Shown one piece after another: positions 35,345 through 60,761 of a stretch of DNA of 64,000 nt (position 1 is the first letter of the stretch; the number at the start of each line of letters is the position of its first letter). Both the position numbers and the translations under genes were made by a program. Source of the stretch: Antitrichia curtipendula. Its lineage: Eukaryota; Streptophyta; Bryopsida; Hypnales; Leucodontaceae. The stretch covers positions 13,618,254 through 13,682,253 of the forward strand of contig OX579641.1 in assembly GCA_951230915.1 (NCBI GenBank), written 5' to 3'. Under the pieces are notes generated by a model. That model searched no databases. It saw only the letters and a program-made list of their open reading frames with translations, and was not told where the DNA came from.

Positions 35345-37330
35345 CTCCTCCTCGCTCGACATAACATTATTAAATAAAATTATATGCAATGTCTTATATG
35401 CTATTGCCCGTAATCTTGCAGGATCTACGGATGTTGCCTTATTAAAACCTCATCAAGGAAAACCTTGATTATAATTAAGGACAAAACGACAAATTAAGGA
35501 AAAAGAGTACAACACCTTTATCAATTCATTCTCATGATAAAATCCAGTGGACAAAAATTATGGAAGAATATCAAAGATTTCTACAATAATAATTAAATCT
35601 ATTTAATCTATTGTTCCAAAGTATTGAGTTGTCACATTCCAATGCCATGAATAAGTTGATAATGAATAGATAAGGGAAGAGCTTTGGTGAAGAGATCCGC
35701 AAGATTTTCCGCAAGATTCTCCGCTAATATAACTTTCTTGATTTCAAGTGTTCACTCTGTAATCAAGTCACAGGTATAGTTGAAATATTTTGGATCAATA
35801 TATTTAGTTCAATCACCCTTAACAAAACCCACTTGCATTTGTGCAACACAAGCACTATTGTCTTCATATAAAATAGTTGGAGAATCGTCATATGGTAATC
35901 CGCAATTTGTTCAAATAAATTTATTAATTGATCTCAATTAGATGCATTCCCGAGATGCTTTATGCAAAACAATAATTTTTGCATGATTAAATGATGTTGT
36001 AATTATTGTTTGTTTCATCAATTTCCAAGATATTGCAGCTCCATGTCGTAAGAAAACGTAGCCTGTTTGAGACTTAGTTGTTATAGGGTCAGATTTGTAG
36101 CCAACATCAGCATATCCAACCAATTTGGGATCTACTAATCGAGAATAATGTAGTCCCAAGTCTTCGGTGCTTTTTAGATAACAAAGAAGATGTTTAATAC
36201 CATTCCAATGTCGTAATGTAGGACGGGCACTATGTCTTGCAAGCATGCTAACTGCAAATGCAATATCAGGTCTTGTAGATGTAGTCAAATATAAAAGTGC
36301 TCCAACCGCAACGAGGTATGGATATTGTTCGCTTAATGGTTCTTCCTCCTCCTCCTTGCAAGGGCAATAAGGATCATCATCTTTGTTGCTACGACCAACC
36401 ATAGGTGTGGATAGTGGATAGGCATCTATCATATTGAATCTTTTCAAAATCTGGTTGATATAAGCCATTTGTGAAAGAAAAATATTGCCATCTTTCAAGT
36501 GAAGAACTTGTAGACCAATGCAAAAGGTAGTTTTTCCAAGCAATTTCATCTCAAATTCACGAATAAGTAGTTGAATAGCTGCAATACATATAGATTTAGT
36601 ACCCACAAGATTCAAATCATCAACATATACTGCAATGATAAAAAATTCATGCTCGTCTCGTTTGATAAAGAGACATGGAAGCAATGGATCATTTATAAAA
36701 TGATGCTTAATGAGATAGTTCCGTAGTTGTTGATACCACATGAGTCTAGATTGTTTAAGACCATATAATGCCCATTGTATTATAACGCCACAATATTTGC
36801 CCAGAATGGGAGCAACTTGACTTGTAGTTTTAAGACTAGGTGGAACTTTTATATGGATTTTAGCATGAAGAGAACCATATAGATAAGCTGTGACTACATC
36901 CATAAGACACATCTTAAGGTAGGTGTGTACTGCCATTCCAACAAGATATCGGAGGGTAATAGAGTCCATAACTGGTGAATATGTGGAATCATAATTAACA
37001 CCAAACTTTTGAGTGAAACCTTGAGTAACTAAACGGACTTTGTAACAAATAATTTGACCTTTTTCATTGCGTTTGTGCACAAATACCAACTTATATCCAA
37101 GAGGTCGAGAAGAAAGATTATTCAAGATAGGTCCCAAAACTTATTTTTTATGCAAAGAAGCATACTCCTCCTCAATAGCAACTTTCTACTTTAACCAATC
37201 AGAACGACGCATCACTTCTTCAATAGTATTTGGTTCAAGATCATCTCTCTCGGAAGAAAGATTTTCAGCAATCATACAAATGAATGATTCATCTATTTCA
37301 ATTGTTACTCTGTTCCAAACATCACTGGGG
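35345..37330 (-). pseudogene. Ty1/copia polyprotein fragment: reverse transcriptase and RNase H
   Basis: A 399-codon frame (35938-37137) holds copia reverse transcriptase: MDVVTAYLYG, then the active-site YVDDLNLVG, then RNase H with STRPDIAFAV and GYADVGYKSD. Downstream, interrupted by stops, the RNase H end continues to about 35650 (ADLFTKALPL, HGIGM). Upstream, 37140-37330 matches the start of the RT region (EVMRRSDWLK) with two stops. Gag, protease and integrase are missing. Copia RT copies the RNA intermediate in virus-like particles; this copy is dead because it lacks the 5' half and has nonsense codons. It lies with its 3' LTR at 35123-35344 inside a family A MITE. Confidence 0.9.
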
Positions 37331-37399
37331 AATACTGGGAAAGGAGCATGAAGCGTGGAGCGGCAAGTATGGAGCGGGGATTGGTGAGCAGGGAGCTGA

Positions 37400-37745
37400 A
37401 ATATTGGAAGGGAAAAAAAAAGTGGAAAAAAATGTGTGAAAAAGTGGATGAAAGTTGATGGAAAAATGGATGAAATTTGAGAAAAAATTCATGAAATTGA
37501 ATGGAAGAAATGGAAGAGAGCGTTTGGTGAAAATGGAATTCGAGAAAAAAGAATTGGAAGAAATTGATGAAAGTGATTAGAAAAATTGGATGTAAGATAT
37601 GGATGAAAATACAAATGAAAGTACATTAAAATAATGGATGAAAGTGGACCAAAAAATGGATGAAAGTAGATAAAAAATACATATGAAAGTAGATGAAAAT
37701 TGAGGATGACAATAGCTGGAAAAATGGATGAAAAAATTTGATTAC
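37400..37745 (+). repeat. purine-rich degenerate minisatellite
   Basis: Repeated variants of AAAAATGGATGAAAGTAGAT, strongly G+A on the plus strand. No coding potential. Confidence 0.7.
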
Positions 37746-38367
37746 ACTAGATGGAAGGGGACCGAGGCTGATTTTGCAGTGAACTTCCCTACTGTGACCT
37801 ATAGGTACAAAACATAAGATGAATGATGATTTGGCACTAGTAGAGGAGACTTTGGCCATCTAAATTGGTAGACCTCTCATCTAGGACTTCAAATTTTATT
37901 TAAATCTTCTTAGATCTACTTTTAGAAAATCATGCTCGTACGGCAACAAAAGATAGGGACCTTCAAACAGAATTGAACTGGAAAAACACAAGAGACAGGG
38001 ACAAGCGGACAAAATTGAATTGCAGCAATATCTCCATTCTTTATTCTAAGAGGCTTCTAGCCATTGCTTCAGGGTCGGAGTTCAATTTAGCATCTAGAGC
38101 ATTAGCTTCCCCTTTATTATCATCACATGCTAATTAGCTCAACATCTATCTGACATTCATCATGCATCTCCTACAGCAGACGACGCTCTCATCCATCGAT
38201 ACCATTGAACTAATGAATTGCATGTTCCATCAAACACCATCTCACAAGGGGCTCTTTGGGTGGTTGCAAGGACAAGCAAGTCAAGAATTCAAATGTGTTT
38301 ATAGAGGAGTGTGTAATTTGGCTGAAGAAGATGCACGATGAATGTCACAAAGATGTCAAGCATGTTG
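37746..38367. other. unassigned intergenic stretch
   Basis: No supported gene or element. Confidence 0.3.
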
Positions 38368-38370
38368 CAT

Positions 38371-40270
38371 CACTACAACAAAATCAGTGTTTTATGACTG
38401 CAAAATATGACTGTAATGAGTCGTAAAATCGAAAAATATGACTGGCTGCAGAAATCACTGTAGATGACTGCAACATGACTAACATGAGTCATTACCGACG
38501 AGTCGCTTCGGACATCAGTCATATTGACAGTCATATTTTTTGAGGGGTATAATTATCCATAATTAGCCGTATTTTTTGCCAACAGGGTGTATATTTTGAC
38601 TATCTTTGAGGGCTTGACTTTTTTTTGAGTTACCCGGGCAAACAAAAATAAATCCTACGTGGCATGTGACTCCATGTAGTCATTTTTTTGGCTGACGTGG
38701 CATGTAACTCCATGTAGTCATATTTTGGCTGACGTGGAATATGACTGCGGTTAGTCATATTTTGGGTAATGTGGCATATGATTTTGTACAGTCATATTTT
38801 TCGCAGATGTGGAATATGACTCTTGTGAGTCATATTTTACTAATGTGAAATATGACTCTTATGAGTCATATTTTGGTTGATGTGATAGTTCATATGGATG
38901 TCATTGGTAGTTTATAACTATTTGCAGTCATATTTTGAAAAATACAAAGTCATATTTTGGAAAAGACTCCATGTAGTTAAAAATGAATATATATGATTTT
39001 AGAGATATACAAGAGATAATCATATTGGAAAGGAGAATGTAAAAAGGAAAGCAACTCTCTTCATTGACATTTATTAGTCACCAATACAAAACATATATAC
39101 CACAATGAATCATTTCACAAAATTCAATAAGGCCTATATTTCTTACAATAATGTGAAGATGGCTCTATTGGGTTGCAAGTAGCCTCCAATGACTTTGTTT
39201 CAACTTTTGATGCCTACATAAACAATTAAAGAAATGGGAGGTTAATTTTTAGTGAATGAACAACAAAGCTCAACCTTCAAAGGCTTACAATAACACAAAA
39301 TATGTAGCTCAAGTTCAAGGTAGGAAAAATAAAAATGGTGATGGAGAAAACAAGAAGAAAAATAAACAAGTACTAAGAAAAAACAACAAGCAAGAGTTAA
39401 AATGCAACAAGAAACAACAACTAAGACACAATAAGAAATAAGAAGCAACAACTAAGATACAATAAGAAACAAGAAGCAACAACTAAGACACAACAAGAAA
39501 CAACAAGAAACAAGAGTTAAGATGCAACAAAAAGAAATAAGAAGCAAGAATTGAAAAGTAACAAGAAGAAACAAAAAACAAGAACTAAGAAGAAGAAAGA
39601 GTTAAAATGTTAGAGAAAGAAAGAGTTTAGATGCAACAACAAGAAATTAGAAGCATGATTAGAACTAAGAAGCAACAAGAAAGAAGAGTTAAGATGCAAC
39701 AAAAGACAACAACTAAGAAGCAAAAAATAAGAAGCAATAACAAGTATGAACTAAGAGACAATAAAAGGCAAGGAAGAAGGGCCCAAAGAAGTGGCAGCTA
39801 GGGTTTCGAAACCCTAAAAAGTGACGGCTAGGATTTCAAAACCCTAAAAAAGTGGCGGCTAGGGTTTCAAAATCCTAAAAAAGTGGTGACTAGGTTTTAA
39901 AATCCCCCCAAAATAGGTGAGTAAGATTTCAAAATCTTAAACAATGGCTTGTCCAATTTTTTTTTGAATTGTCTATATATTTCTTGGATTGCTCAAAACA
40001 AAAAAAATGACACTACCATGGAAATATGACTGACAATATGACTTAGCGTTCCCCAAACATATTCCCTACGTTCCCTATGAAGTACTTTGGTATGTCTAAT
40101 GGTCATATGGTGTATACTTGTGAAGTAGAAGGCCCAAAAATGACTGACAATCATATTTTGCAGTCATATTTTTCCTCAAAGTGTTGGCCTTCAAGAATAT
40201 GACTACAACTAGTCGTCAGTCATCCTCAGTCATATTTTTGCAGTCATAAAATACGCATTCTCTTGTAGTG
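38371..40270. mobile_element. non-autonomous CACTA element, copy E1
   Basis: Begins CACTACAACAAAATCAG and ends in TTGTAGTG; the inverted ends also share TTTTATGACTGCAAA and ATATGACTG. Target duplication CAT (38368-38370, 40271-40273), the 3 bp expected for CACTA/En-Spm. Inside: palindromic units of the form AATATGACT..AGTCATATT (38645-38945), an AAGCAACAACTAAGA-type A-rich minisatellite (39240-39770), and five roughly 31-bp units with core CTAGGGTTTCGAAACCCTA (39791-39940). No transposase; it would depend on an autonomous partner. Confidence 0.92.
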
Positions 40271-40273
40271 CAT

Positions 40274-41530
40274 AATGATTTAAGTACATATCACTTGTAA
40301 TAATCCAAAAGCAACAACAAGACTGAACACTCCAGAAGAGAAAACGCGACCCCAAAGATGAATGATAATTGAAATCTTTAGTTTCTCTATAAACTACGTC
40401 CACTCGAACTACTAGAATGTAACGTCACCTTGTACTACTAGTCTACTAACACTAATTCCAAGTATACCGTCACTATCTGATGTCTGCGACTCAAGTTCTA
40501 CAACACTAACCTAATGAAAACTAAACTTATGCAGGGATTCTTAAGGTCGGCAAAGACAACCTCATCCTATTCAAGTGTCACAACACGATGACGTGTGGTA
40601 CAAAGTGATAAGTTCAGAATAGATCATCTTATCCGACTCTAGTGTACAAACTACACCACACATGCTATAAAACAATCATGAGGGCAAAAATAAGCTTACC
40701 CTCCTCTAAGGACACAACGCAGTTACACTGGGTAGTACAACCTTCAAAGCTGCAGCATCTAGAGCAGTTGAACGTTAAAAAAAAAATACATGTCGATGAA
40801 GGTCAACTTCACTCTAAATAATTTGCAAGGAAAAACGAATCCATTCAGTTGAGCTAGGCAAGATGTACAGACTAGCCACCTCGGCAAGCAAGGCAAAGGG
40901 GGGTGGTGGTCTGTCTGCAGAGTCAATCTAGGCAATGAGTGCGGTTTTAGAGACTGCAGCACGGAGACCAGGGTAGAAGGGGGGGGGGTAGCCCATCTAG
41001 CATGGCTGCCCTTGGCATTGAGGTGGGGGAGATGGAGGCATGTTTATCCCGGCGAGCTGGGTAGGGATGGAAGGCTATCCAGACCGTTGAGCTATATAGG
41101 GAGCATGGGCAGCTCAACCCGTTACGCTATGTAGGGAGGAAGAATTTACCCTTGAGCTGGACAGGGGAGACAAGCGGAATTAGCAGTTGATGAATCCAAT
41201 GTGGACAATCCGTTCAATCCGTTGAATTGGGCAAGGTGACCGGGCTGCGTAGCCGTGTCTTTACCAATGTCAACTAATTGTTTTGGCGTATTGATATGCA
41301 AGGATGGCATAGGAAATTCCGAAGACTCTCTATTTGCTTACCAGATTATTATGATGGAGGTGTTAAATGATTGTGGTTAAGCATGCATACCAAATGGTTT
41401 TTTGATTTCATAATGCATATAAATCACGAAAGAAACCTCAAATACAAATATAATAAGAAATCATAATCCTTGAAAGCTATGATATGCATACAATCCATCC
41501 GTAGTACTGGATATCAGTACTTCACATAGA
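40274..41530. other. intergenic stretch 3' of the methylase-like gene
   Basis: Lies between element E1 and the stop of the minus-strand gene. Short frames without domains. 41060-41240 repeats variants of CCGTTGAGCTATATAGGGA. Confidence 0.35.
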
Positions 41531-42176
41531 CTAGGCTGAGGTAGAACTACCCTTACTATTTGATGTCTGTAAATCTGACTTTGCAGTACAATCATCTACA
41601 AACTTGAGAGCACAAGGATATACCAAATAGGCCCTAGAATAGGGTCTCGGATTTAGTGACACAAAATCCTTGGAAAGCGCCTCAACATACATAGGTAGTT
41701 GAAATGCTTTGGGTGGACTTGAGGAAAAACCTGGATTGGCAAAAAATGGAACTTGTTGAGAGGACTTCAATTCTTTGGCTTTCCTATAAACACCAAGAAA
41801 CACCAAGTTAAAATACAAGAGAGTCAGATCAATCATTGGAAACAAACAAGGAGATTAATGTGAAACTTACTTCCTGAATCAAGATGTCTTCACAATAGGT
41901 TGCACGGGTACGTCCTTGTCGTCCACGTCTAAAAGCTCTACCGGCGATCGTGGTAGTGGTGGCTGAACGACTGCAGTGGTGCGCATGATTGGAGCAATGA
42001 GGGCTTCAAAGATAGCCTTGTCTTCCTCGAATGCAAGAATATGCCAACGCGTGGCGCGGCAGGCTTGGATGCAGGAACCTACCAACATGCCAAGCAAGGA
42101 TTAGAAAAAATCATTGGAACATGAAGTTCACGGCATGGTACCATTGATATTAAAGTAAACAGTTAGCTAAGAATAC

Positions 42177-42884
42177 CTATGGCCGTTGCGCAATCGATGA
42201 TGATGTCTCTTGGTTACATCATCTCTTCCACTAGCATTTGCATAAATTGTCGGGCCTTGTTGCGAGGGCCTTGCCACGGTACAGCCCCATTCATAGTGAG
42301 TCCTTCTTTGAAACAAAGTTTGGAAATGATGTCGTCATTGGCCACGGTGACCCCAACTGCATCTTGGAATGGTACAAATTAGAACGAAAAATCCTCTTCT
42401 GTCTTTGGGCCCGAGTCTTTGACAACTAGAGCGGCAGCAAAGCGCTTGGTTTAGAAGAAAACAAATGTCATAATCGCATATACGAGAAATATAAGTTCAA
42501 AGGAAATATACATGATGGTAGAAGAGTTGTTACTGTTTTCTTTGGATCTATAGGTGATATGAGATGGAGATGATTGTTGCTGAAGTGCTTGAGAAGTATG
42601 TAGAACTTCTATTCCTGAATGCATTTGAGGAGCTGGCTTCGGTGTTTTCTAGAAAGGGCAGGGTATATCACAAACAATCCATTGTTGTCGTGGAGGTACT
42701 TCTGGGCAAAATAAAAAATTGCTATGAGGTAATCCTTGTCGAATTCATTCCACTTGGAAATGGATGCAAGCGGTGCTGAAATAGTTGGTACATGAAGTCT
42801 TTCAGGGACATCCACAATGATCAAATCGATAGTGGCCTATGTGCTCAATGTACCGTCGAAATAGCGATCCTTGTCATTGGAATG
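42177..42884 (-). other. methylase-like core exons of the pseudogene
   Basis: These two exons plus 42078-41871 hold the catalytic-domain signature. In beta-class N4/N6 amino-methyltransferases the target-binding motif IV (usually D/N/S-PP-Y/F/W) precedes the cofactor motifs X and I. Here motif IV reads DVPE at 42801-42815 and motif I reads DCATAIGSC, split by the intron 42176-42079. The order and spacing fit; the key residues are altered. An RNA (METTL3-like) methylase origin cannot be excluded, since that group shares the same topology. Confidence 0.6.
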
Positions 42885-45800
42885 CTGCATGAGACAACAA
42901 ATATACATTAAAATAAAAGGAGTATGAAGATTCCAATGCGCAACAAGAAGAAGCGCAAGGTAGCCAAGGCGGATAAACAATGAAATCCAGATTATGTAGT
43001 CCAAAAGTGTAACAACATCATATACACTGACCATTGCCAAGAAGGCTTTGACATCCTCAAGGCCCTTTTGATCGTTGCAGAGCTTGCCCAAAGGCAAGTT
43101 GAAGATGCACTCGTTGATGTTTGGAACATGATGTATGTTGTGAGTTGTCGGTGTTAGCCCGTGCACCAGTCGCTCCTGAGTGAGTAAAAAATCGGAAGAC
43201 TTATCCTTCATCTATGCTGTGCTTGTAGGTGGTTCTTGTAAATTTGTTTCTGCTTTTTGCTTAGTTCCCTTCTTCCCGGCCTTCGCTTCCTCCTTCTTTG
43301 CCTTGGCTGCCATGCGCTTCTTTTTGTTGTCCTTTGTCTTCTATTTGCTTCTTCCCATTTGTCCGCCTTCTTCTTGTCGCCCACCTCCCTTCTTGCGATA
43401 GCTTTGGCTCAAGCCTCGGGATCTAGTCTCACAAATTCATCAAACTTTGGCTTGACGTTTGTAGATTCCTTGAGTCTTTTGAAAATGGTTTCCTCTTTTG
43501 GCGGAGTAGTGCCGAAGTTGCACTCAAGGTACCATGGGCACGACTGCAAATATGGAGTCGTCCAAAGGCGCAGCTGGGAACCAGAGAACATGCAGTCGGG
43601 CGATGATCTGTCCAACCACGTAGTAAGGAACGGTGGTAAATCCGCCTTTTGTATTGCCTTCTTTGCATATAACTCAAACTTGAAATATCTATAATTGGAA
43701 AATTCAGTAGACATGAAGACAAATTAAAAAAAGTTATTGATCAAAAAATAGAATATTCATGCATGAGTTGCCCCCCTTTAGAACCCCTCTCTGTACCAAG
43801 ACACCCGCCAAGTGTACCTACTTCTTGACCCACTGAAACCTTTGGGTCCCAACCCAAAAAGGCCAAAGGCGTTTAGAGAAAAGATTTTTGTAATTACTGC
43901 ATGACATGCAACCCCTTTGAATGCGTCTTGATACCAAGACACACGCATGGACTACCTATCTCTTAGCAAATCAGTAATTCTAGATTCCCCCCAAAGTCCC
44001 AAACTAGATTTATAAATATATTTTATTTAAACTAGTGCATGAATTGCCCTTCCTTGGTGTCCATCTTGGTACTCAAACGCCATTTTGTATTGCCTACCTA
44101 TTCAAAAAAAGAATTCCAGGATAGCCATTTTGAATCCCCAAACTTGAGTTTAACAAAACATTGTTAAAACTGACGCATGAGGTCTTCCCCCCCACATAGG
44201 CCCTTTTGGTACCACATTCTAGCTTTCTTATGTCGTACAAACACCTGCACACCTTCAAGAATTGATGATGATTGGTACTTGTAGAGCAGCCTCTTCACTG
44301 CAAGGGTAGCTCCACGGTAGTCTGCAAAAGTATCAGACTTCTTGAAAGGCTCCAACCCCTTGAATACGCCAGTGTATGCTATATCTTATAGTTTCATTCT
44401 CTACTCTTTTAGATATTTTGGTAGTGTTTGTGGCTCCGTTGGAACATCAATATTGATTGGAATATTGTTAGCCTTGCAAACGGTATCAAAAAGTGTAATA
44501 GCTGACTCCTCTAGCTGCAATAAGAATGGGATGTCATTATGAGTTAAGTAGTGTCCGCGATTAGTTGGGAATCTAGTGTAATTTGACAAAGGGACATGTA
44601 TCAACAAATGAGAAAAAAATTTCAAACAAAAGAAAAGAAAAAGTTACAAATCCTTACCCCAGCATACCAAACAGCCTTTGCAAGGAACAACATCAACTTG
44701 TCCTCGTTGATAGGACAGGCTGAAAATCTGTGAGCCTCCCTTGTAGGAGTACATGCGTTCATTCACTTCAGCCATTTCACTTTTTGTACAGGCGAAGTAA
44801 TGGCAGATGATATCATCTGCAACTTGTCAAGAGTTAACTCCGGTACTATGAATAGACTCTAGTGCCTCTCGATCTGCATAATTATAGAGAATAGAAATTA
44901 GTCTCAACACTAAAATTGAGTCTTTGATCATTTCCTCGGCAATTGCGGAATACAAAATTACCTCTTGTAGAAACTCTGGACCCAGAATGGAAGCTGCAAT
45001 GGACACTATCTTTGACATCTTTTGGCAAAAAGAGGCTATGGAGTCTTTGATAGATCTTCTCATTGCCGCAACCACTCCATCTAGTGTCATCTAGTCCTTC
45101 AAAGTATCTTTGTGGTACTTGTGGACGGCAAGGTCTGCCATCGTTGAAATCTCTTGCTGGTAGGATCCACATATGAATTTAAAATTAAAATTATTTAAGA
45201 ACGTATAGAATTTCATTGAGTACATTTGATGAATAGTAACTCGTCCTACAGGACATAAAATGAATAGTAACTTGTCCAATGTGACAACTATGATTTCAAT
45301 CCAAGTAGAAATTAAAATAAATAGAAAAAGAATTCATACCTTGAAAATGAAGGATGTGAAAACTCCGAGGGGCATTGAATACCATGTTTTTCTTGCCGTA
45401 TTTTTGCACGTTTTAATTTCGTCGGGGCTCAGAAGCTCATGGAACTTCTCCAGATCCATGACACCATATTTTTGCACTTGGTATAAGGCGTGCATAAGAT
45501 TGGTCTTCACGTATGAATTTTCCATTTGTCTGGAAAACAGAAAGGTCTCGAGGTTGTCAAATTCATCATAAAAATGATTAGTGACTAACGATCGATGCAT
45601 CAAAATATGAATAGATACTCGATCTAGACAACAAGAAGTACTTACTAGTTAATGTCGTGCATAACCTGCATGGCTATGCTAATTTGACTCCTCGTGTCTA
45701 GATCGATAGAGTCTACAACATAGTGCCAATCAATGTCGGTGGGGTGCTTGCACTTAATATGATTAAACCAAGCTATACACCAGTGATTGCCGTCGCAGAC

Positions 45801-47300
45801 ATATAACTTGTGGTCAACCAAATGCTTGAGCGCCATTTGGGAATTGAGGTGGGCATTGAATGTGTCGTTGACCTGGTTCCACAATGGCCCCCATTCTTCC
45901 TTCTCTGCAGCAGAGAACATGCCTGTTTGCCCTTTCTCATTTGCAATGGACACATAAAACATTCATGCTCCCTCTTTGTATCCCCAAGCAAACTGGTTCT
46001 CGAGTTGCACAAGGTCACATTTTAATGTAGGCCGGACCATAGGCATAGGTATCATTCGACACAAGGGGATACACATCCTGGACAGATGGGATGATGTCAA
46101 CTTCAAGCTTGATATGATAGAAACAACATCCATTTTTTGTGTCTTCCTAATGTTGTCTTCCATCAATTCCCGACCCAATCCCGGGATGTTGCCTTCTTCC
46201 ATGTTGTTTACTTCTGAAAACTTGATGGACAGTTGTGAAACTGGATCCGTCTCTATAGCAAAGGGTGACTTGGAGGGAGAGCCTACATAGGCATCAGTCT
46301 GCATCTGGAACACCACAAAAAAAAACAAATTAGAGTAGAAACAAGCATTATGGTGGAAGACGAGTGAAACAATGAAAGAAGTGATACTGGTGAGAATTGA
46401 TAATAAAAGTAAAGGTACACCAGACATAGTTGTATCTTGAACTCATTATCTAGCCAACCTCAAAGTCTGCATGTGCAACTCTCAGTGAGAGGCATGTAAT
46501 GACCACAATAGTAGATTAGAATGTCATCATCCGAGGCTAAAGTAGATGTGACCTCTACCTCGATACGATTACAAGTGCAAAACTCTGTACTATGAGGAGT
46601 AGATGATTCAATCTTCTCTAGGAGATTCTCCCCTACTGAGGTGTACAATGAATTCCTACAAGAAATGACTTCTCTATTAGAGAAGTCATATAATGTTGAT
46701 CTTGATTCCTTCAGTAACCCTTGGCGGCTTATCGGAATAAATGTGGCCGAATCACTTTCAGCCATGTCATTATGGACCTCTTCTTGAACAAAGTTTTGTG
46801 TATCCCAAACCGAATCCATCTCCTTCAACACCTAATCAAAAACATAGCAGACAATGAAGAATATAGTTAAGAAATGAAAGAAGAAGGACGGATTTAGGAT
46901 CATCAGAAAATTGGGGCTACCCTTTCCCAAGAAAAATGGGAAGGGTAATGACTTCCATGCCCCATATTTTGCTTATGCGTAAGAGATTCCCCAGCCTAGG
47001 AGATGTCTCGGTACCGAGATTGTATCTATGGCAAGCGGCCATATACAACTTGGATGACCGAGAAATCCTCACTTGCCGCGATTGGGGCCAATGTTTAATT
47101 CTATTATGAAATCCAAAGACAAGAATGAAAATCAAAGCCAAAAGACTGTGCTTCATACCTCAACGATTGGAAGTACCACATCCTAATTGAGGATGTCACC
47201 AGTTCCTACTCCAGGTAGTCCTCGTCGCAATCTCAGATTTCTATCCATGGTTGTCCTCTCTTTGTTGCAGGTGATCAGGTTTAAGAATGTAGTAAGCAAA

Positions 47301-49411
47301 CACTACAACAAAACCAGTGTTTTATGACTGCAAAATATGACTGCAATGAGTCGTAAAATTGAAAAATATGACTCGCCGCAGAAATCAGTGTAGATGACTG
47401 CAACATGACTGACATGAGTCATTACCAACGAGTCGCTTCGGACATCAGTCATATTTTTTGGGGGGTATAATTATCCATAATTAGCCGTATTTTTTGCCAA
47501 CAAGGCGTATACTTTGACTATCTTTGAGGGCTTGACTTATTTTTGAGTTGCCCGGGCAAACAAAAATAAATCCTACGTGGCATGTGACTCCATGTAGTCA
47601 TTTTTTGGCTGACGTGGAATATGACTGCGACCAGTCATATTTTGGCTGACGTGGAATATGACTGCGGTCAGTTATATTTTGGCTAATGTAGCATACGACT
47701 GCGGTCAGTCATATTTTGACTGACGTGGAATATGACTGCGGTTAGTCATATTTTGGATAATATGACATATGATTGCGGTCAGTCATATTTTGGCTGACGT
47801 GGAATATGATTGCGGTCAGTCATATTTTGGCTAATGTGACATATTACTTTGTACACTTATATTTTTCGTAGATGTGGAATATGACTCTTGTTAGTCATAT
47901 TTTTGAATGATGTGGAATATGACTCTTGTTAGTCATATTTTTGAATGATGTGGAATATGACTCTTGTGAGTCATATTTTACTAATGTGAAATATGACTCT
48001 TATGAGTCATATTTTGGTTGATGTGGTAGTTCATATGGATGTCATTGGTAGTTTATAACTATTTGCAGTCATATTTTGAAAAATACAAAGTCATATTTTG
48101 GAAAAGACTCCATGTAGTTAAAAATGAATATATATGATTTTAGAGATATACAAGAGATAATCATATTGGAAAGGGAGAATGTAAAAAGGAAAGCAACTCT
48201 CTTCATTGACATTTATTAGTCACCAATACAAAACATATATACCACAATGAATCATTTCACAAAATTCAATAAGGCCTATATTTCTTACAATAATGTGAAG
48301 ATGGCTCTATTGGGTTGCAAGTAGCCTCCAATGACTTTGTTTCAACTTTTGATGCCTACATAAACAATTAAAGAAATGGGAGGTTAATTTTTAGTGAATG
48401 AACAACAAAGCTCAACCTTCAAAGGCTTACAATAACACAAAATATGTAGCTCAAGTTCAAGGTAGGAAAAATAAAAATGGTGATGGAGAAAACAAGAAGA
48501 AAAATAAACAAGTACTAAGAAAAAACAACAAGCAAGAGTTAAAATGCAACAAGAAACAACAACTAAGACACAATAAGAAATAAGAAGCAACAACTAAGAT
48601 ACAATAAGAAACAAGAAGCAACAACTAAGACACAACAAGAAACAACAAGAAACAAGAGTTAAGATGCAACAAAAAGAAATAAGAAGCAAGAATTGAAAAG
48701 TAACAAGAAGAAACAAAAAACAAGAACTAAGAAGAAGAAAGAGTTAAAATGTTAGAGAAAGAAAGAGTTTAGATGCAACAACAAGAAATTAGAAGCATGA
48801 TTAGAACTAAGAAGCAACAAGAAAGAAGAGTTAAGATGCAACAAAAGACAACAACTAAGAAGCAAAAAATAAGAAGCAATAACAAGTATGAACTAAGAGA
48901 CAATAAAAGGCAAGGAAGAAGGGCCCAAAGAAGTGGCAGCTAGGGTTTCGAAACCCTAAAAAGTGACGGCTAGGATTTCAAAACCCTAAAAAAGTGGCGG
49001 CTAGGGTTTCAAAATCCTAAAAAAGTGGTGACTAGGTTTTAAAATCCCCCCAAAATAGGTGAGTAAGATTTCAAAATCTTAAACAATGGCTTGTCCAATT
49101 TTTTTTTGAATTGTCTATATATTTCTTGGATTGCTCAAAACAAAAAAAATGACACTACCATGGAAATATGACTGACAATATGACTTAGCGTTCCCCAAAC
49201 ATATTCCCTACGTTCCCTATGAAGTACTTTGGTATGTCTAATGGTCATATGGTGTATACTTGTGAAGTAGAAGGCCCAAAAATGACTGACAGTCATATTT
49301 GCAATCATATTTTTCCTCAAGGTGTTGGCCTTCAAGAATATGACTACAACTAGTCGTCAGTCATCCTCAGTCATATTTTTGCAGTCATAAAATACGCGTT
49401 TTCTTGTAGTG
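47301..49411. mobile_element. non-autonomous CACTA element, copy E2, in an intron of the methylase-like gene
   Basis: Same ends as E1 (CACTACAAC ... TTGTAGTG) but a different target duplication, AAA (47298-47300, 49412-49414), so it is an independent insertion. The right 1.3 kb is almost identical to E1. It is 211 bp longer, mainly because the array of GGCTGACGTGGAATATGACT-type palindromic units (47577-48075) has more copies. In the gene model it lies between the exons at 49711-49594 and 47259-47159. Non-coding; the 61- and 69-codon frames inside are duplicated low-complexity. Confidence 0.92.
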
Positions 49412-50224
49412 AAAATTGAAAGCATGAGGCACAGATAAATGTCTCACGATATTGAAAAGAAACCCAATGTGTATAATGTTGGCAATGTCTTTCCTGTAGA
49501 TCCAAAGTTGAGTGTGCGCAGATAGAGACGACAGATCTCCATCAAGATGGTTTGAAATTGTTAGACTTTGGGAATGGCGGTAAAAGGGCTTACCAATCCC
49601 ACCACGAGGTCTTCGCGCGGTAGTCAGTGAGGCTCTGGAGATGCGGAGAGGATGCTTGGAGGAGGGGAGGATCGAGGAAGGGGAGATTCGGAAAGTAAAA
49701 GGGGCCTCATACTAAATTGGTTGGGAGGGTTGTGGGCGCAAGATTACCCACTTTTGGTAATCAGGCGAACACCGACCAGGTTCTATGCCTTTATCCACCT
49801 TTTGAATATATGGGGGTGTTGTGAGCGTGGTCAATTGTGCCTTCCAAGCAATGGATCTTTTTGTGCTAACATTTTATAAGTGTCGTGGATGGCAGCAAAT
49901 ACTACTAGAAATGCATGGGTAACTAACAAGCTGACTGTGATGATCAAAGGTGATGGTAATTCGTAACTCCCTAACTGTCTATCCTATGTATGGGGTTGGC
50001 TAGGTGGTTGGAGTCATTTCTAACGTCCCTAACTACATGAGCGGGGCCCCTTATGTTCCTTCCATGAGTGTCGAAGACTATCTTTTGAGGGTTGACACTT
50101 CTCTCGGAAGTTTTAACTCTACGGCGAATCCTAAGCTTAGTCTTTACTCTAGTTTCCAACTTCTAATTGTCACTCTAGATTTTTGGTTCTATGGTTTGAT
50201 TTTTTTACCTTTGGGTTTTTATTC

Positions 50225-50600
50225 CCGAGTAAATTAGCTCTAAATTCTACCCCTAAATTAACTCTAAAGTTTTTACTCCTAATTTTACTTCTAAGTTTTA
50301 CTCCTAAAACTAACTCTAAGTTTTTACTCCTAATTTTAACTCTAAGTTTTACTCCTAATTTTAACTCTAAGTTTTATTCCTAATTTTAACTTTAAGTTTT
50401 ACTCCTAATTTTACTTCTAAGTTTTACTCCTAATTTTACTTCTAAAGTTTTTACTCCTAATTTTAATTCTAAATTTTTACTCCTAATTTTACTTCTAAGT
50501 TTTACTCCTAATTTTAACTCTAAGTTTTACTCCTAAAACTAACTCTAAGTTTTTACTCCTAATTTTAACTCTACAATTTAGCTTTTATTCCTAATTTTTA
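50225..50600 (+). repeat. minisatellite of 24-26 bp units
   Basis: About 15 head-to-tail variants of AACTCTAAGTTTTTACTCCT / AATTTT. It would lie in the first intron of the minus-strand gene model. Confidence 0.9.
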
Positions 50601-50772
50601 CTTTACCTATTACGGATTACTATTCACGTGACGAGGGCTAAATTTAAAGGAAGAACCACAAGCTAATTGGGAACAACACACCAAAGATTAACTCAAACGA
50701 AAACTCACCCCTTCACTGCTGGTTTCGGAGAGAAATTCGTCCACGTCTGTATGCACATTCTCGTGCTCCATG

Positions 50773-53700
50773 GTGGTCCTTGATTTCGGTTGAAATTTCT
50801 TCAAGCTCACCGCTTATTTTTGGGAAAAATTATGACCTTGTGCGATCTAAACCTTTCTACTTCCCTTCCCCCTTCTTTCTCCTTCCCTTCTTCCTCTTTT
50901 TCTTTCTCTTCTTCTCTTTCTACCCCAATACTATTCTACCTAAACCTTTATGGATGTCTTACAACTATAGATTCAAACCCTAAGGAGGTTTTAATGCCCT
51001 TCCTACTCTCTTACACCATTTTATCTTGGTGTCATCCTAATCCCGCTTCTAATAGTTGCTATGAATCCTCAAGATTTCCCTATCTAAGTCTCCCTAATCC
51101 TAGACCTAGGTCACTATTTATTGTCTCTCTCGCTCCCTTTTCTACATAGTCATCTTCTACTCTACTTCTCCTTGTATCTTTTTGTGGCTTTGCAGGTTTT
51201 GGACGGCATATGTCCCACGTGGAGCTTATCTTGGGCTTCACCCCATTTTTCTACTCTCTTTTCCCCTCTACCTTCAAATTGCCCTTGATTAACTTCACGT
51301 GCGCACGATGGATCCGACTCCCCACCCGGACTCTAAACCTTGAGTAGTGTAGAGACTCGATTTTCTTTTTTGTGGGAGTTCCCCCCCCCCCCTCTCTTAG
51401 TTGTTTTCCCTTTTTTTATTTTCCTCTTTGATTTCCGAATTGCCTGGACAACTCTGAACTGCCTGGACAAGACCTCAAACTGCCTGGACAGCAAAGAACC
51501 CCCACCCCACCCCGAACTGGACCCCAACTCCCCTCCCGACCTGACTAGACAGGACCTTTCTCACTGGCCGGGACCTTCCTCACTAGAGCCCCGACTTCCC
51601 CCCCCCCAACCTGACTGGACGGACCTTGCTCACTGGAGCCCCGACTCCCCCCGACCTGACTGGACGGCGACCTTGCTCGCTGGAGCCTTAGGACTGGTCC
51701 CTTAAGCTGGTCCTTAGGCCGGTCCCTTGGGTTGGGCTCGGTTTTTACTACAATATTTTCTTCTCGGGTTCCACTATGGGAACCCACTTAACACAACCTT
51801 AAACCGGATGTTCAAGGTTAGAGCTTCGCCGTAGCGGGGGGAGTGAGCTAGACCTTTTAACAACAATAATAACAAAAATATCTCGCGACGTGGTTGTTTT
51901 CTTCACTTCTCTACAACCTTGGGCGACTCTTGGGGACTAAACTTTGGGCTCTCCCAAGAAGGTCTTGGGAACTAAACTTTGGAGTTTCAACTACCCGGGG
52001 GTTCAAAGCTTCGCCGCAGTTTGGTTTTGACACCAACTCTAGGACTTGCGAGTCTCCCCAGTTCAAAGCTCCGCCGTATCGGGCCGGTTTTGACACACTC
52101 TAAGACTGGTGTAAGTTTACAGGTTCAAAGCTTCGCCGCCTCAAGGCGGTGGGGCCCACTTACAAGCAACACAAAAAAAGGTGACTACATATGGTTAGGA
52201 CTCACATACAAGGCAACCGTTCCCACAAAGCAAGAATAATCATGGGCAACACTCACATACTAAAGGCCCCCCAAAGCGGCATCGCCAAGGTACGGTGGAG
52301 GGTGGCTTTAGGATTAGTACAAGACACAAGAAAGACACACGAGTGTAAATAAAAAACCCTCACTCACAACAAGATACAAGGTAAGATAGAGGGACCTCAA
52401 AGGACCTTCAAAAAAGCTTGAAATGAAACAACAACAGAAGCCAAAAGTGCTCCAAAAACACCGTAGAGGTTTCTTGGCTAAAACGCCAAAAATCCCAACA
52501 TAAATTGGACCCACGGACCCAAAACAAGAATTGGGGGTGTTCTTGAGAGAAAAATGGGGACCTTAAATAGGTTTCCAAGGCCCCACCCTTCCCTCAAGAG
52601 TTCTAAAGTAACCTTATCAACTTGGATTTTCATCCTCATCTTCAAAAATTTTCATCCTAATCCCTAAAAAACTACTTTTACCTATCTACGCTGGACCAAC
52701 CTTCTAACTTTTGGAGATTAACTCCAATCGTCGAACGGATTGCGCTATTGGCTCCAGATCGCCGTGTTTAGTCCAAGACCCCCTTGCCCCCCGTACCGAG
52801 GACAAAAAACCATCGTAGGCTAATTTAGTTTTAAAAACTAAACCATGGTAAAATCCTAGATCTTGGGGGTCTCCTATTTTGAGAAATGTAAATAGCCTAG
52901 GGTCTCCGATAGGTGTGAGGGAGTCGGAAAAGACTCTTGGTTGACTTCGTTTTGCCATCATATGGTCCCGGGATGCCGGTCAACGCGGCGGGGACCCCGC
53001 CACGTGATTAATTCTCGAGGAATCTCGCCGGTTCGGGTACTTTCTGCTATCGGAATGTCGCACTTCTGGCAACCTGGGTAGTTTCCATGAAATTCCTGTT
53101 GGAGGTTACCAGGGTTGACCACCCGCAAAAGGTTCTTCTGCAAGTCGGAAGATGACAGGATTTTTCACATGACCTCTCGGGGAGTCATATAAAAGATGTG
53201 CAGGTGCGTTTCCGTACCTGTCACAATTGGTCAGTGGAGACGAATTGGCCATCTCCTTGAATTAGCGATGGTGCGGGAATCTTTTGCGGATAGAGGAATC
53301 TTGGCGAATCGATTTCGTCGTTGAACTCCTGGCATGGGATTTACCCTAGGACACCATCCTTGGGCTGTAGATTCCTCCACGGGCCTGGTCTTGCGTTAGT
53401 GGCTCCTGCATGCTAACAATCGGGGTTTGGGGAATTTCTAAACCTAACTCTAGGACCCGACCTAGTGGCCTCGTTGTGGGTCCCTCGGATTGACTTAGCC
53501 ATGAATTGCCACATTCATGGTGGGATTTAGCCCTTTTGGGCCTATGTGACTTGAATCCTCCAAATCTAACCGTTTCGCTCTTTCTACCTATTTTTAGGCC
53601 AGGTTTGGTGGGGTTCTAAGTCTAAACACAAATCTAGACCAAATACTATAATGGATATATTACAACCCTATTTTGGTTCTACACTCTTTTTATGGCTTTT

Positions 53701-54443
53701 TGTATATTTTTCTTAACTTTAAATTGCAAATTTCAAAAAAAATAATTCTACGAGTCCCAAGTGACAAATTGGGAGCTCACAAGGGTCCGTGATTTAAGGG
53801 ATTGGGGTCTTGGAGGCTCAGAGGATCAGGCCTTAATAAACTTTTCTAGAAGATGGTACACGTATAGTACTTCATATTATCTATACATTGCAAGCTTAAT
53901 ATTTATATTTTTCTGCAATGATGATTTCACGTAGTCATTAGGAATTTGCAGGATACAAGAGGCATCCATATTCAATACTTCTTTGATGTTGGTACCTAGA
54001 CGTGACCAATCCGACTTGTAGATTATAGACACTTCGTCTTAGAGAGATTGCAATCAAAGAGGTATTCAATTTATTTATGATGTTGGGATGATAGTAACTT
54101 GATTATTTGGACATTACGATACACAATGACGGCTAATATTGGCCTGTATCTAACATGACATATCATGCCATAGATGTAGTATTCAATGAACCATCAAGCT
54201 TACAACAATCAATTCAATGTAAACTTCTCCCTATGTTTATGCAAATTTTAAATCCACACCTTTGAATTGTCGCGGAATTCATGTCATTTTCCTGTTGTTG
54301 ATCATTGCGTTTGTCTCATCATGTACATTTTTATCGATCCACAGCTTCATTTGTAGACTGAACCGCAAATACACTTGCTCTTTTTTTAGATCTGGGCTCT
54401 TGATTTTTGATATTTTCAAAAGTAAAAGTTACGTTTAGTTGCA
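50773..54443. other. higher-GC stretch of simple and tandem repeats, no gene recognised
   Basis: 50855-50930 is a C/T-rich run on the plus strand. 51440-51720 holds tandem variants of ACTGCCTGGACA and of CTGACTGGACGGACCTTGCT. 51990-52150 has three copies of GGTTCAAAGCTTCGCCGC-like sequence. A TATA-like TATAAAAG is at 53190-53197. Base composition differs from both flanks. Parts may be a worn LTR or retroelement leader, but I found no reverse transcriptase, integrase or paired LTRs. Confidence 0.45.
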
Positions 54444-55604
54444 ATGGTGGACTTCTCAGACATAATTGTGGTCAGTGTGAATGGGGATGAGGTTCCCATC
54501 ATTTTTCCAGTGAGTCAAAATAGAGTTGCCTTGGTTTCAACTATTAGATTGAGTCTAAGGTTTAATTTCAAGGTAGAGTCGGTTCATGTCGATGAGGACA
54601 TCTACGACTCTGAGACCGAGAACATTATCCACAATATAGGACAGACACCTGCTTTGGATGTTGAAAACAAGTACTGGAATCTGAAGCTTGAAAAAATAGG
54701 GTGTATGGATTACGTAGGCCTGGTTGGTCAACTTCTACGAACACCTTGACACCACATCGTTAATCGTCATCATTGTTTCAAACCCCACCCATAATTTGGG
54801 TAAAGACAGAAGTTATTTTTGACAGTGTCACAATTTTGAGTGATGACTCGGACAGTGATCCATTTGAGGATGACAGGAACATTTACACTTCTACTCATCG
54901 TATGTTACCAAACCCTATTACTGTAAACCCTACCGTGAAAAACAATTTGTCGTTGGTTTCTAGGGCAATAGTGTTTGTTGCAGATTGTCTGAGGGGACTC
55001 CGTGCGTTGAAGGGATGCAGAAATATATTGTTCAAACTTGATTACAACACGATTTCCATTTAGAGAGTCCATGCGTTGCTTTCAATTTTTAATGGTAATG
55101 TGATATTTGAGTTGCTGGCACTAGAGTCCTATTCTTCTTAAGGTGAAGCCTAGCCCATGGTTGGGATGGATAGACAATATGATGGTCACTTGTGGACTAA
55201 AACGGTGACCACAAATATTACCAACCCCATGGGATTTTCCTTCCGCACATCTACTTGTCTAGGTCATCTTCGTTGTATAAATTCAAGTTGTGAGTTTCTC
55301 AATCGCGTCCACCAAACCATGCCCTTGAATAAAATGGAATGGAAAGGTCTGTCACCTATTCCACTCGATGTCGAAAATGGTCATCCTCCGGGTTCAACTC
55401 TGGTATGTAGAGTTTGCACGCAACCCCCATTGCGTATTGCGAGGTGTAATGTGAAGGTCTATTACGTGATTAGAAATGACAAGCATACACGTGCTTTTGT
55501 ACATTTGGGCACTCATGAGCATCCTGTGAAGGGTGGAGAACTTTGAGACATGAGAGAGAGAACTTGAACTCTCACTGGAGGGCAGATGGAGAGAACACTG
55601 ACTG
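54444..55604 (+). pseudogene. Mutator-like element, N-terminal part
   Basis: Three plus-strand frames (54444-54749, 54773-55063, 55157-55546), separated by stops, form the start of a MULE transposase gene. The last piece has a zinc-binding pattern TSTCLGHLRCINSSCEF, then LVCRVC, then HLGTHEHP, resembling the WRKY/GCM1- or FLYWCH-type DNA-binding module found N-terminal to MULE transposases. The frame continues after the hAT insertion at 60762. This copy cannot make protein: it has several stops and is split by a 5-kb element. The left end and long terminal repeats of the MULE could not be identified. Confidence 0.75.
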
Positions 55605-55612
55605 GCTCAAAC
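55605..55612. repeat. hAT target-site duplication, left copy
   Basis: GCTCAAAC, repeated exactly at 60754-60761; 8 bp is the hAT standard. Confidence 0.95.
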
Positions 55613-55870
55613 CAGGGTTTCTTTTTCTGGCGATTTGGAGCAAAATTGCACCAAAAAATATTCCCTGGCACCACGACTATAGAAAAAAAATGAAGAAAAA
55701 CAGGGCAAAATCGCCTGGGGACCCGCACGTTTTTTTCCCCCGGTGTCGTTTCTGCCTAGAACGGTCCTCCACTCCTGGTTGATGTCGCCAGCTCCAGTCC
55801 CGTTGGAACTTTCCACCGTTTTTGCTTGGAGCCGCCTCTGCTCCAATCTGTCCAGTTGATTGTCACTTTC

Positions 55871-56045
55871 ACGCCACCTTCGCTCCACAAATCATCTCCT
55901 GAGCGCCACCTTCTATCCGCATTCGAGTTTCATTAGCGCCACCTTCGCTCCACAAATCATCTCCTGAGCGCCACCTTCTCTCCGCATTTGAGTTTCATTA
56001 GCGCCACCTTCTCTCCCACATTAAGTTTCATTAGCGCCACTTTCA
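55871..56045 (+). repeat. 65-bp subterminal tandem repeats of the hAT element
   Basis: GCGCCACCTTCGCTCCAC begins units at 55871 and 55936; shortened units starting GCGCCACCTTCTCTC and GCGCCACTTTCACG follow at 56001 and 56034. The core GCGCCACCTT recurs within each unit. Subterminal repeats are typical transposase-binding sites in hAT elements; binding here is inferred. Confidence 0.8.
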
Positions 56046-56499
56046 CGCTGTAATGGAGCTTGTTGTAGCCCACTAAGCGATGCCATACCTGCATAGGGAG
56101 CCAGTACTGGGATTTAGGTTGTGCATTGACAGCCAGTTCTACAAGTGTACCTCGATTACTTACGCTACATTGATTTCCACTTCGTTGTGGGTGAGGGTGC
56201 ATTGCTTTTGGGTAATTCAAATTATGGCTTGCTTTGAAGCACGCAATCATGTAGGGGTTTGGTTTAGGGTGTGCTTGCACATTGAGCAACAACGGCTTTC
56301 CTGGGCCACATTTAACTCAGCAATTGGTGAACAAACATCCACAGTATCCTTTGCTCAATTTGGTGAATGTTGGATGTGTCTAGCTGTTTGCTTTGTGTTG
56401 TTGTTTTTGAATTGGGGTTTAGGATTCTTCTGTTGCTTGGTTCGGCTTGGGTTCCGCACTGGGGACTCGGGGATTTCGGTTGCAAACTTGTTGGCTCCA

Positions 56500-59400
56500 A
56501 TGGCGGATTCTCCTTCTGCTCTTGAAGACATTGGTTTCACCAATGCTGCGAAGGCTACACATGACAGTCTCATGGCAGAGAGACGGAAACGAAAGCTGGC
56601 CCGATTGCAGCGGGAGGCCAAGGCAGCAGAGCAACAGGCACAAGCTTCCAAACAAGCGCTAGAAGTGGAGGCACGCAAGAGAGCGAGAAGTGCCAATACC
56701 ATGCGTAGTTACTTCACATCGAGCAGGAATTCTCTCAATCGGGGACCTTTGCAATCTACTACAAGGGAGCTTGAGAGCTCAGTGGCTGTGCCTAGCCTTT
56801 GCAGTGAGTCTTCGCAGTCTTTCGACACAGAGATCCTTTTGTCGTGCCCCGCTGTGGTGGCGGTCTCAGACGATGAAGAAGTATCCGATAATTCAGAAGA
56901 TGAGCCAGACCTCAGCGCCGATGAGATGTTGGGCTTCGACGACGACGCTTTCCAAGATCCGCCGTGCCAGGGCGGTAAGAAGCGCAAGAGTGCAGATCTG
57001 AGGTTGAAGACTACAGGTTTGTCTTGTGCAACCACAATGAAGAAACTGAAGAAAAACTACAATCTACACCGCAAATTTCACAGCGAGTGGGCGGCAAAGG
57101 AGCCTTGGAGCGAGGCTGTGTTGGCGGCAGATGGGGTCATGCAGACAGTGCGTTGCATACCGTGCTCCATAGTGCGTGGTAAACCAGTTCACATGGCTCC
57201 CAAGTGGGATATAATATCCAAGCATGGCCAACGTGACATTCACAAGAAGTGCATGCTTCTATTTGCAGTTCGGGGGCCTATGTCTGTGGCTGAGCAGATT
57301 CAGGGTTGCAGCACACTAGAATCACGGAAAAAACGTGTACAATTTGCAACGCTTTTCCAATTGCTTGTAGGAGGAAGGCCAATGACTGAATTTGAGACCC
57401 GCTTTGAGTTGTATAACTTCCTTAGTGTGCCGGAGCTCCCTCGCAAGCACTGGGGTGACGGCTCAGGCTGGGTAATGGCCGAGCACCTTTACGACTTCGT
57501 GAAGCACAAAATCAAAAGCCTTATCTCTGGTGCAATGTATTTTGCATTGTCTACAGACGAGACAAGTGCATGCGACAACACGAGTTGGATTGCGATCCAC
57601 GTTTACGTTATGCTAAATTGGGTCCGAGTGCCTCTTCTTTTGACCATTCAAAAGATGGATTCAGATGGAGCCACGGCTAATAAGTTGACCACTGTGATCA
57701 TATCGGCTTTGAGTGTTGGAGGGGGATAACGGATGCAGACATTACAGAGAAGCTTCTTTGCTTCGGAGCTGACGGGGTCAGTAGTTTTCAGGGGACAAAG
57801 TTTGGAGTTACGACCCAAATAAAAGAGAACCACGCTCCTTTCGCAACTGGGGTCCACTGCTGCGCACACCGTCTCAATTTAGCTGCACAGTCACTCTTGT
57901 CATTCCCTGTTATGCATGCGATAGAGGAAGTCCTTCGCACAACACACACCTATTTTGCCCATTCCCCCCAAAAGGCGGCCGAGTTCAAGGCATTGGCACA
58001 GCAGCTCGAGTCCAAAGGGCTCAAGTTGCTAAAAAATGTGAAAACTCGATGGATGAGTTGTCTGGGTCCAATTCGTAGGCTGCTTGCGGAGTACAAGGGC
58101 GTCATGGCCATGATGAATCATGACAAAAATGATAGAAAGTGGGGACAGAAGGCCAGGGTGAGTCATACTTTGTTTTTCCCTTCATCGCTGTTTGTTTGTC
58201 GTATTTGTAGGACAAGAAATGCATGCTCCTTTTCTATTTTGTTCTTCATTTTCATTTTTTTTAATTAGCCGTGGTCACTATTCTTTTCTACTGTGGTTTT
58301 TATTTATTTTTATTAAATGTATGGTGACTATTCTTTTCTATTTCGTTTTTTGAGTGATCTGTACTGGATGTACTGCAATCTGGTATAGTGAGCTCAGAGT
58401 TTTATTGGCTGCATTCTAACATTGTTATATTGAAAATCTGGACAGGCAAACCTAGCCCTACTCTTGGATCCCTATGTGTTGCTCAGCATGCTCGCTATGT
58501 TACCAATGTTGGAGGCTGTGGATACTTTAATCCAGTGGGCTCAAAAAAGAGATGCCTATATTTGTGATTTCATTGGTGCTCTAGGCACATGTCAGACCAG
58601 CTTGTTCACCTTCTATTTGAACATTGATACAGCCTTCCGCAAAGACGAGTTTCATGCTTACAACCAAGTCCTACAGTGCTCCCATGAGCAAATCTTGATG
58701 AAGTGGGATGCCAATTTGAACTTGCCTTGTGAGTCTTTGACATTTGTAGTTGGTGGAGAGACGCTTTATGCTATGCACGATGGTGCGATGGTGAACCGTG
58801 AGGGATACGCTGCCATAATTGCCAACATCCAGAGCGATTGCAAAGGTAGGTTCCACCTTTTTTTTTATTCCACCAACAGCCTTCTCGATTTGGGGGGTGC
58901 ATTATGCATGCTTTTTACATGGGAATGTCAGAGGTTACTCTGTAAGTGCTTTCCAATCTGCTTTCCTATGTATCCACTTGCAATGCACTAACCAGAGCTG
59001 CTCCCTTCGTCATGTGCAGAGGCCGCAAGGAAATTGATGGATGAGATGACCAGCAGGTTTCCAGATCACGGGCTCATGGACGCTTTGGGTGTCGTGTACC
59101 CGCAGTATTGGCTCCAGGGGGACTGCAGTGAAAGCTTCAGAAAGCATTTGGACGTTATCAAAAACTTTTATGGAGAACCTCGGTGGATTGGTGAGAGTGA
59201 CAACAAGCGTTTTGTCCCAGCCGTGCTTGATAAATTCCTCCTCGAATCAGAGCAACCCCTTTTCAGAATTGCTATGATAGCAAATGCCCACGCTACCATG
59301 GAGATGCCTCTGTTGCATGCTCCTGCCCACCAGTTGGTGAATCCACTCACGAAACTGTAGAGGACCTTAGACGCAAACTCTTCTCTTGGCAAAAACTTCG

Positions 59401-59645
59401 GGGAGTATATCAAATTGGCCCACATTGCCATGGTGCATGTGCTGGGCAGCGTGGAGGATGAACGCACATTCTCTGCGTTGTCTTTTCTCAAGGACCGGCT
59501 ACGTAACAGACTTGATCAACACTTGAGCGTGGTTGTGGGCATGCATTGTCAGAGTCTATATACTTTGCAGAATTTTCCATATGACGATTGTTTTAAGCAG
59601 TGGGTGCTTGCTACTGAACGACATCGTTATGCGCTCACTGCGTGA
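56500..59645 (+). pseudogene. hAT transposase, three exons, nearly intact
   Basis: The start is set at ATG 56500 (MADSPSALED); the frame is open further upstream without family content. Exons 56500-58157, 58446-58845 and 59020-59645 join in phase at GT-AG introns (GTGAGT and GTAGGT donors). Order: coiled, charged N-terminus (ERRKRKLARLQREAKAAEQQ), acidic stretch, BED-like zinc finger (CIPC...KWDIISKHGQRDIH), catalytic-core segments LSTDETSACDNTSW and LLCFGADGVSSFQG, HRLNLAAQSLL, TRWMSCLGPIRRL, and the C-terminal dimerisation region SALSFLKDRLRNRL. One extra base in a G run near 57722 shifts the frame, and TAG near 59359 stops it. Both are single changes. It cuts and pastes hAT DNA in the nucleus; the family resembles the ZNF862/DUF4371-type hATs. 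Confidence 0.9.
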
Positions 59646-60753: not shown

Positions 60754-60761
60754 GCTCAAAC
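60754..60761. repeat. hAT target-site duplication, right copy
   Basis: GCTCAAAC, identical to 55605-55612. Confidence 0.95.

Follow-up and report, generated by a model that had tools for sequence, protein, structure and literature searches.

The 64,000-bp stretch analysed here (the window; C9:13618254-13682253 in assembly G000 of the moss Antitrichia curtipendula, 400 Mb in 303 contigs) contains on its reverse strand a decayed multi-exon gene, which combines an exon with a DGNH box and a region resembling bacterial DNA methylases. The initial annotation assigned positions 41531-50772 to this gene; the actual unit is a transposon that extends far past both limits and carries a transposase-like gene divergent from the methylase-like one. 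That first reading missed that the latter is an accessory gene of the element, that its copy in the window is dead and that the catalytic motif is replaced in the copies read.

The transposon and its two genes

Copies L129-L135 are about 98% identical across long shared blocks, and in two copies of this group the similarity, 98% over about 15.7 kb, extends outward and then stops abruptly, which delimits elements of 15,743 and 15,358 bp. The less damaged elements are about 15.4-15.7 kb long, with two divergent genes each. Target-site duplications of 10 bp were found at all seven elements examined, five of them perfect and two matching at nine of ten positions (10/10 and 9/10 in the 15,743/15,358-bp pair, 10/10 in four more copies, and 9/10 in the window). 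Terminal inverted repeats are present as imperfect ends, CAACGTTGCTAGGAAGCGAGC and, inverted, GGGGAATGCTGGGAAGCGAGC, with GGAAGCGAGC in common and inverted subterminal repeats behind them. In another subfamily, the end CATTCCCC is common to four copies, the flanks of which are all different. The window element is 26,954 bp long in total, nested insertions included. A lone host gene is ruled out by the copy number and the target-site duplications.

Target-site duplications of 8-11 bp are given for Mutator-like elements (PMC6446971). Mutator-like appears to be the best class for the moss transposon, although not a proven one, and this assignment leans on the duplication length and on motifs read by eye, since the transposase-like protein has no Pfam match. 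In an intact copy (copy A), two large frames of 725 and 541 amino acids are divergent from the methylase-like gene; the motifs recognised in the transposase-like frames by eye are an aspartate segment followed by CLFH (CxxH) and a SWIM-type CxC...CxH. The corresponding remnants in the window are 57-76% identical to the frames of copy A.

Exon 4, exon 10, the piece preceding the methylase exons (pre-methylase piece) and a transposase-like piece were each scored at no fewer than 150 places in the genome, with 1275, 1135, 222 and 1253 first-look candidates, respectively. At 110 of the 150 scored exon 4 places the pre-methylase piece is located downstream on the same strand at a distance of 1.5-6 kb (2.0-2.95 kb at 109 places and 5.5 kb at one), while pairs in reverse order were absent; in 500 random placements such pairs averaged 0.15 and never exceeded 3. 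This order and strand supports the original proposal that both modules belong to a single gene. Of the 150 scored pre-methylase places, 66 have the divergent transposase-like gene within 30 kb and two more have it in another orientation; 500 random placements, with any orientation counted, yielded 3.5 on average and at most 9.

Paralogues, for which the initial annotation had recommended a search, are present in the genome, and some of them are less damaged than the window copy. In 17 of 20 copies read, the matches begin at exon 3 or 4; the first matched exon is later in the other three (exon 5 in L136, exon 6 in L144 and exon 7 in L143). Copy L142 lacks part of exon 4, and several of the 20 contain stops or frame changes. 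Two copies, L168 (C1:33189300-33190400) and L169 (C4:21580000-21581050), represent a distant subfamily with 57-60% identity in exon 10, open frames of 395 amino acids around this exon and a motif IV that still reads DVPEGL.

The ratio of nonsynonymous to synonymous substitution rates (dN/dS) was calculated by the Nei-Gojobori method, which is rough at such distances, for eight pairs of less damaged copies; pairs involving the window were excluded because the rule used for assigning frames goes wrong at exons 7 and 11 of the window copy. The whole-gene values were 0.19, 0.06 and 0.10 in three unsaturated pairs, while five saturated pairs had proportions of synonymous (pS) and nonsynonymous (pN) differences of 0.75-0.80 and 0.20-0.23, respectively. 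For the methylase part, dN/dS was 0.09-0.22 in seven of the eight pairs. The constraint is clear, and the accessory gene is under strong purifying selection.

In the protein database, exon 4 has 23 relatives among 104 candidates, with 49-69% identity; these are frames the size of an exon. A group of six (P0008, P0009, P0013, P0014, P0016 and P0019) is 80-95% mutually alike although the contigs that carry them differ in length, which points to several copies within a single genome. Many relatives terminate with N-K and a stop or with N-K-Y-V, ends that would fit read-through of a GTAAGT or GTATGT donor. The protein search with the joined window chain gave no match at E<=1 (6988 candidates), and that with the two joined methylase exons gave none at E<=10 (21 candidates).

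The methylase and DGNH regions

The methylase region was analysed in a set of eight family members, the window copy among them. PF01555 matches seven of the eight at E<=1 (32.7 bits for the member listed, the curated cut-off being 26.7 bits), and phrog_3008 matches all eight. The match to DpnA has an E-value of 0.016 with the window copy alone and 4e-4 with the eight members. Residues 18-239 of 244 in copy L148 align with phage DNA methylases (best E 6e-6), with 717 phage records at E<=10, of which 16 span at least 80%. For the window copy alone there is no match in Pfam, so the profile match expected from the initial annotation was obtained only via the relatives. The methylase part of the window copy scores 11.5 bits against a profile of 17 methylases, higher than any of 2000 shuffles (at most 8.5 bits); the full joined chain scores 2.3 bits and does not stand out. 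In the hhalign comparison with phage ParB-methylase fusions, the window copy scores 18.8, below the best shuffle score of 22.3.

Motif I is retained in the C-terminal part as DCTAATG or DCTAGTG and follows motif IV, which is the beta order, and the whole region is colinear with DpnA and the phage methylases. The colinearity and the PF01555 matches agree with the earlier assignment of an amino-methyltransferase domain of beta order, and the matches also uphold the claim that motif I is created by the splice from 42177 to 42078. Motif IV was tallied in 28 copies, comprising 21 aligned sequences and seven distant copies. It reads D[V/I]PE in 21 of them (17 aligned and 4 distant), while the seven variants are DVPK (twice), DVSE, DILE, DFPK, DMPE and DVLE (once each). 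Judged by its sequence, the protein resembles a bacterial enzyme for DNA methylation, but with an altered catalytic signature.

The second module, described at first as ParB-like, does contain the DGNHR box, but its profile support is faint and equalled by unrelated families. Exon 4 weakly matches phrog_1033, a ParB-like partition protein, in 5/22 cases (best E 0.039), DndB in 2/22 and 1/22, and DUF1015 in 1/22, while values of 0.038 and 0.024 were obtained for Imm63 and a beta-lactamase. In hhalign, the ParB half scores 11.0 against the phage ParB-methylase fusions, lower than several column shuffles, the best of 100 reaching 26.1. Searches with exon 4 gave two phage matches at E 3, none in PDB, none among plasmids, and no relatives in viral (IMG/VR) or prokaryote contigs. 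The exon may be kept as a ParB/Srx-like box, without membership of that superfamily.

The window copy and its surroundings

The exon structure (Table 1) was assessed in an alignment of 21 sequences, namely, the window copy and 20 genome copies of 9.9 kb. Introns 4-7, 9, 11 and 12 have a donor GT (or GC) in 17-21 of the 21 sequences and an acceptor AG in 19-20, and intron 10 has the donor in 21 and the acceptor in 14. The multi-exon GT-AG chain first proposed therefore stands for exons 4-7 and 9-13, the borders of which recur in the 21 sequences, but not for exons 1 and 2, which have no clear counterpart. The original donor of exon 3 is a GT in one sequence of 21, and the borders between exons 10 and 11 had to be corrected to an exon 10 end at 42534 and an exon 11 start at 42444.

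The window copy is a pseudogene. Contrary to the initial annotation, phase is lost at some junctions: exon 9 requires a frame change, the exon 4/5 junction reads TAA and the joined chain contains 16 in-frame stops. Nine stops in eight exon pieces examined each face a sense codon in L132 and L135, and the box reads DGNHWC, compared with DGNHRR in the relatives. Decay purely through C-to-T changes was considered and rejected, as several of the nine stops face TAT, GAG, GAA or TGG in these two copies.

Table 1. Features of the transposon and the accessory gene (positions in the window)
Feature	Position	Strand	Basis or remark
Transposon holding the gene	37327..64280 (window part 37327..64000)	-	Element ends; colinear with intact copy A
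Target-site duplication AAACATCACT	37317..37326		Partner AAATATCACT at 64281-64290, beyond the window
Exon 1 (proposed, unsupported)	50709..50771	-	Frame open; counterpart absent from 20 copies
Exon 2 (proposed, unsupported)	47159..47257	-	One stop; clear counterpart absent from 20 copies
Exon 3 region, 3' border doubtful	46421..46831	-	Parts matched in copies; donor GT 1/21
Exon 4, DGNH (ParB/Srx-like) exon	45646..46304	-	23 protein relatives and 20 copies
Exon 5	45340..45529	-	Matches and borders in copies
Exon 6	44962..45156	-	Matches and borders in copies
Exon 7	44658..44873	-	Matches and borders in copies
Exon 8, 3' end and exon 8/9 border provisional	44122..44514	-	Matches in copies
Exon 9, frame change and stops; tail is the 60-aa pre-methylase piece	43032..43688	-	
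Exon 10, methylase motif IV region (VDVPE)	42534..42884	-	Copy alignment and methylase comparison
Exon 11, first part of motif I region	42177..42444	-	Borders and PF01555 matches
Exon 12, rest of motif I region (GS.IQACRATR.HILAFEEDK)	41871..42078	-	Borders and PF01555
Exon 13	41531..41783	-	Intron 12 borders in 20-21/21
Transposase-like remnant, first part	54444..55605	+	
Transposase-like remnant, middle part	60759..61695	+	Comparison with copy A
Transposase-like remnant, last part, CxC...CxH motif	61926..63491	+	Comparison with copy A
Later insertion (5.2 kb) splitting the transposase-like gene	55606..60758		Gap relative to intact copy A
CACTA-like element in proposed intron 1	47301..49411		
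Sister CACTA-like element in the transposon tail	38371..40270		

The two CACTA-like elements, both inside the transposon, are 98.4% identical over 1544 bases and have 35-nt inverted ends; the flanking triplets CAT and TTT resemble, by eye, 3-bp duplications. Proposed intron 1 also contains tandem repeats of an approximately 26-bp unit (ttaggagtaaaacttagag...) at 50231-50605. A long frame at about 56500-59644 in the 5.2-kb insertion has an end resembling, by eye, the hAT dimerisation region. Copia-like retrotransposon sequence was recognised by eye on both flanks (36000-37326 in the window, and L153 from about position 281), so that the window element appears to have been inserted into a retrotransposon.

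The original conclusion that the locus is plant nuclear DNA and not contamination is supported by the spliceosomal introns and by a LEAFY locus in the assembly, on contig C6. The nearest structure to this locus is 4bhk, from the moss Physcomitrella, with three differences in 106 residues, a likeness that makes a moss the probable host. The N-terminal (SAM) family of LEAFY exceeds its cut-off at five places in the assembly, and the C-terminal family is confined to a single locus.

Possible functions of the accessory protein

We give about even odds to the interpretation that the window segment is a dead accessory gene of a moss Mutator-like transposon, the protein of which acts on the element's own DNA. 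Such a protein would bind S-adenosylmethionine through the conserved motif I, would recognise either the ends of the element or the repeats that separate its two genes, and could then counter host silencing, in the manner of VANC proteins, or mark the element DNA. Action on the element's own DNA is the most likely role, in the form of anti-silencing or help in transposition. Tandem arrays are located between the divergent genes, upstream of the accessory gene, in copies L138 (6507-8462, 256 bp x 7.6) and L141 (612-2967, 447 bp x 5.3), and may be sites where the accessory protein binds. VANC proteins strip DNA methylation from the elements that encode them, and the sequences that they target often form tandem repeats (PMC5735166); together with the arrays in two subfamilies, this favours a self-directed factor acting on DNA.

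Several observations weigh against this interpretation. The transposase-like protein has no match in Pfam at E 0.1 or at E 10, and nothing meaningful in PDB. No scored pre-methylase piece was found within 60 kb of 74 of the 150 scored transposase-like places, so some elements may lack the accessory gene. Copy L129 has no tandem array, and the ParB similarity of exon 4 is not established. The catalytic motif IV of N6/N4 amino-methyltransferases is (D/N/S)PP(Y/F/W), and it was found in none of the 28 copies; the protein may therefore not be an enzyme.

The altered motif IV of all 28 copies, as well as the divergent two-gene layout and the strong sequence constraint, would suit a non-enzymatic methylase domain in a DNA-binding helper of excision or insertion, in which the ParB-like exon would nick or bridge DNA. 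The mudrB gene of MuDR has been proposed to have a helper-like role. The retained cofactor motif I would be unneeded by a pure scaffold, and we regard such a helper as a serious but less probable explanation than action on the element's own DNA. More doubtful, and in our view unlikely, is the proposal that a bacterial-type amino-methyltransferase of unorthodox catalytic motif, fused to a ParB-like module, writes or reads a mark other than 5-methylcytosine (N4-methylcytosine, 4mC, or N6-methyladenine, 6mA) on the transposon's own DNA. Mutator-like elements frequently capture pieces of host genes (PMC6446971), which could make the accessory gene a host gene or a passenger fragment useless to the element; its constant position across diverged subfamilies, the 150 or more scored places, the purifying selection and the relatives from other sources make this improbable. 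An integrated giant virus or polinton-like virus as the origin is more improbable still, even though bacterial-type DNA-modifying domains are found in large DNA viruses and the initial annotation had recommended a comparison with giant viruses, given that IMG/VR contigs have no exon 4 relative, that the methylase yields one weak IMG/VR locus of 55 residues, and that 10-bp duplications and, among the large frames of one copy, a two-gene layout are present.

Among known systems, the VANDAL/VANC elements of Arabidopsis are likewise plant Mutator-like elements with an extra gene and tandem repeats, but a methylase domain is unmentioned in the excerpt (PMC5735166), and the likeness is drawn from their description. 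Cytosine methyltransferases are carried by retrotransposons of dinoflagellates and charophytes, and Dam-like enzymes by DIRS elements (PMC5890265); these are eukaryotic transposon-borne relatives of DNA methyltransferases, with algae close to plants included, but their carriers are retrotransposons and their enzymes C5 or Dam-like, whereas the moss gene is of PF01555 type with an altered motif IV and resides in a DNA transposon. Fungal DNA transposons with TET/JBP dioxygenases (PMC12730594) also combine a DNA-modification gene with a DNA transposon, in another host and with another enzyme class. In the ParB-methylase fusions (Bce_0392, PMC5512222; L026 and L028), a ParB-type box similarly precedes a methylase of beta order, and Bce_0392 is said to nick DNA. 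These fusions are compact, with the domains close together, whereas in the moss they are separated by about 600 residues and several introns, ParB profile similarity is undetected and motif IV is altered. The N4-cytosine methyltransferases of bdelloid rotifers and Marchantia (PMC8885841) are also bacterial-type amino-methyltransferases in eukaryotes, one of them a bryophyte, but the Marchantia enzyme, compared by description only, is said to lack extra N- or C-terminal domains.

To our knowledge, few plant transposons with anti-silencing proteins are known, and among the titles and abstract openings retrieved from the open-access literature none describes a DNA transposon of plants that encodes a protein of this kind. 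The transposon-borne DNA methyltransferases found there sit in retrotransposons, in contrast to the moss case, a DNA transposon. A family with at least 150 places and a constrained methylase relative offers a direct test, in an early land plant, of how DNA transposons escape or use DNA marking. What looks like a pairing of domains typical of prokaryotic conflict systems persists here in eukaryotic mobile DNA, and the repeated occurrence of DVPE prompts the question of whether a methylase fold has been turned into a cofactor-gated DNA reader. If self-marking proved true, this would be the first known case of a land-plant DNA transposon labelling itself, and 4mC/6mA marks in moss genomes might come from it.

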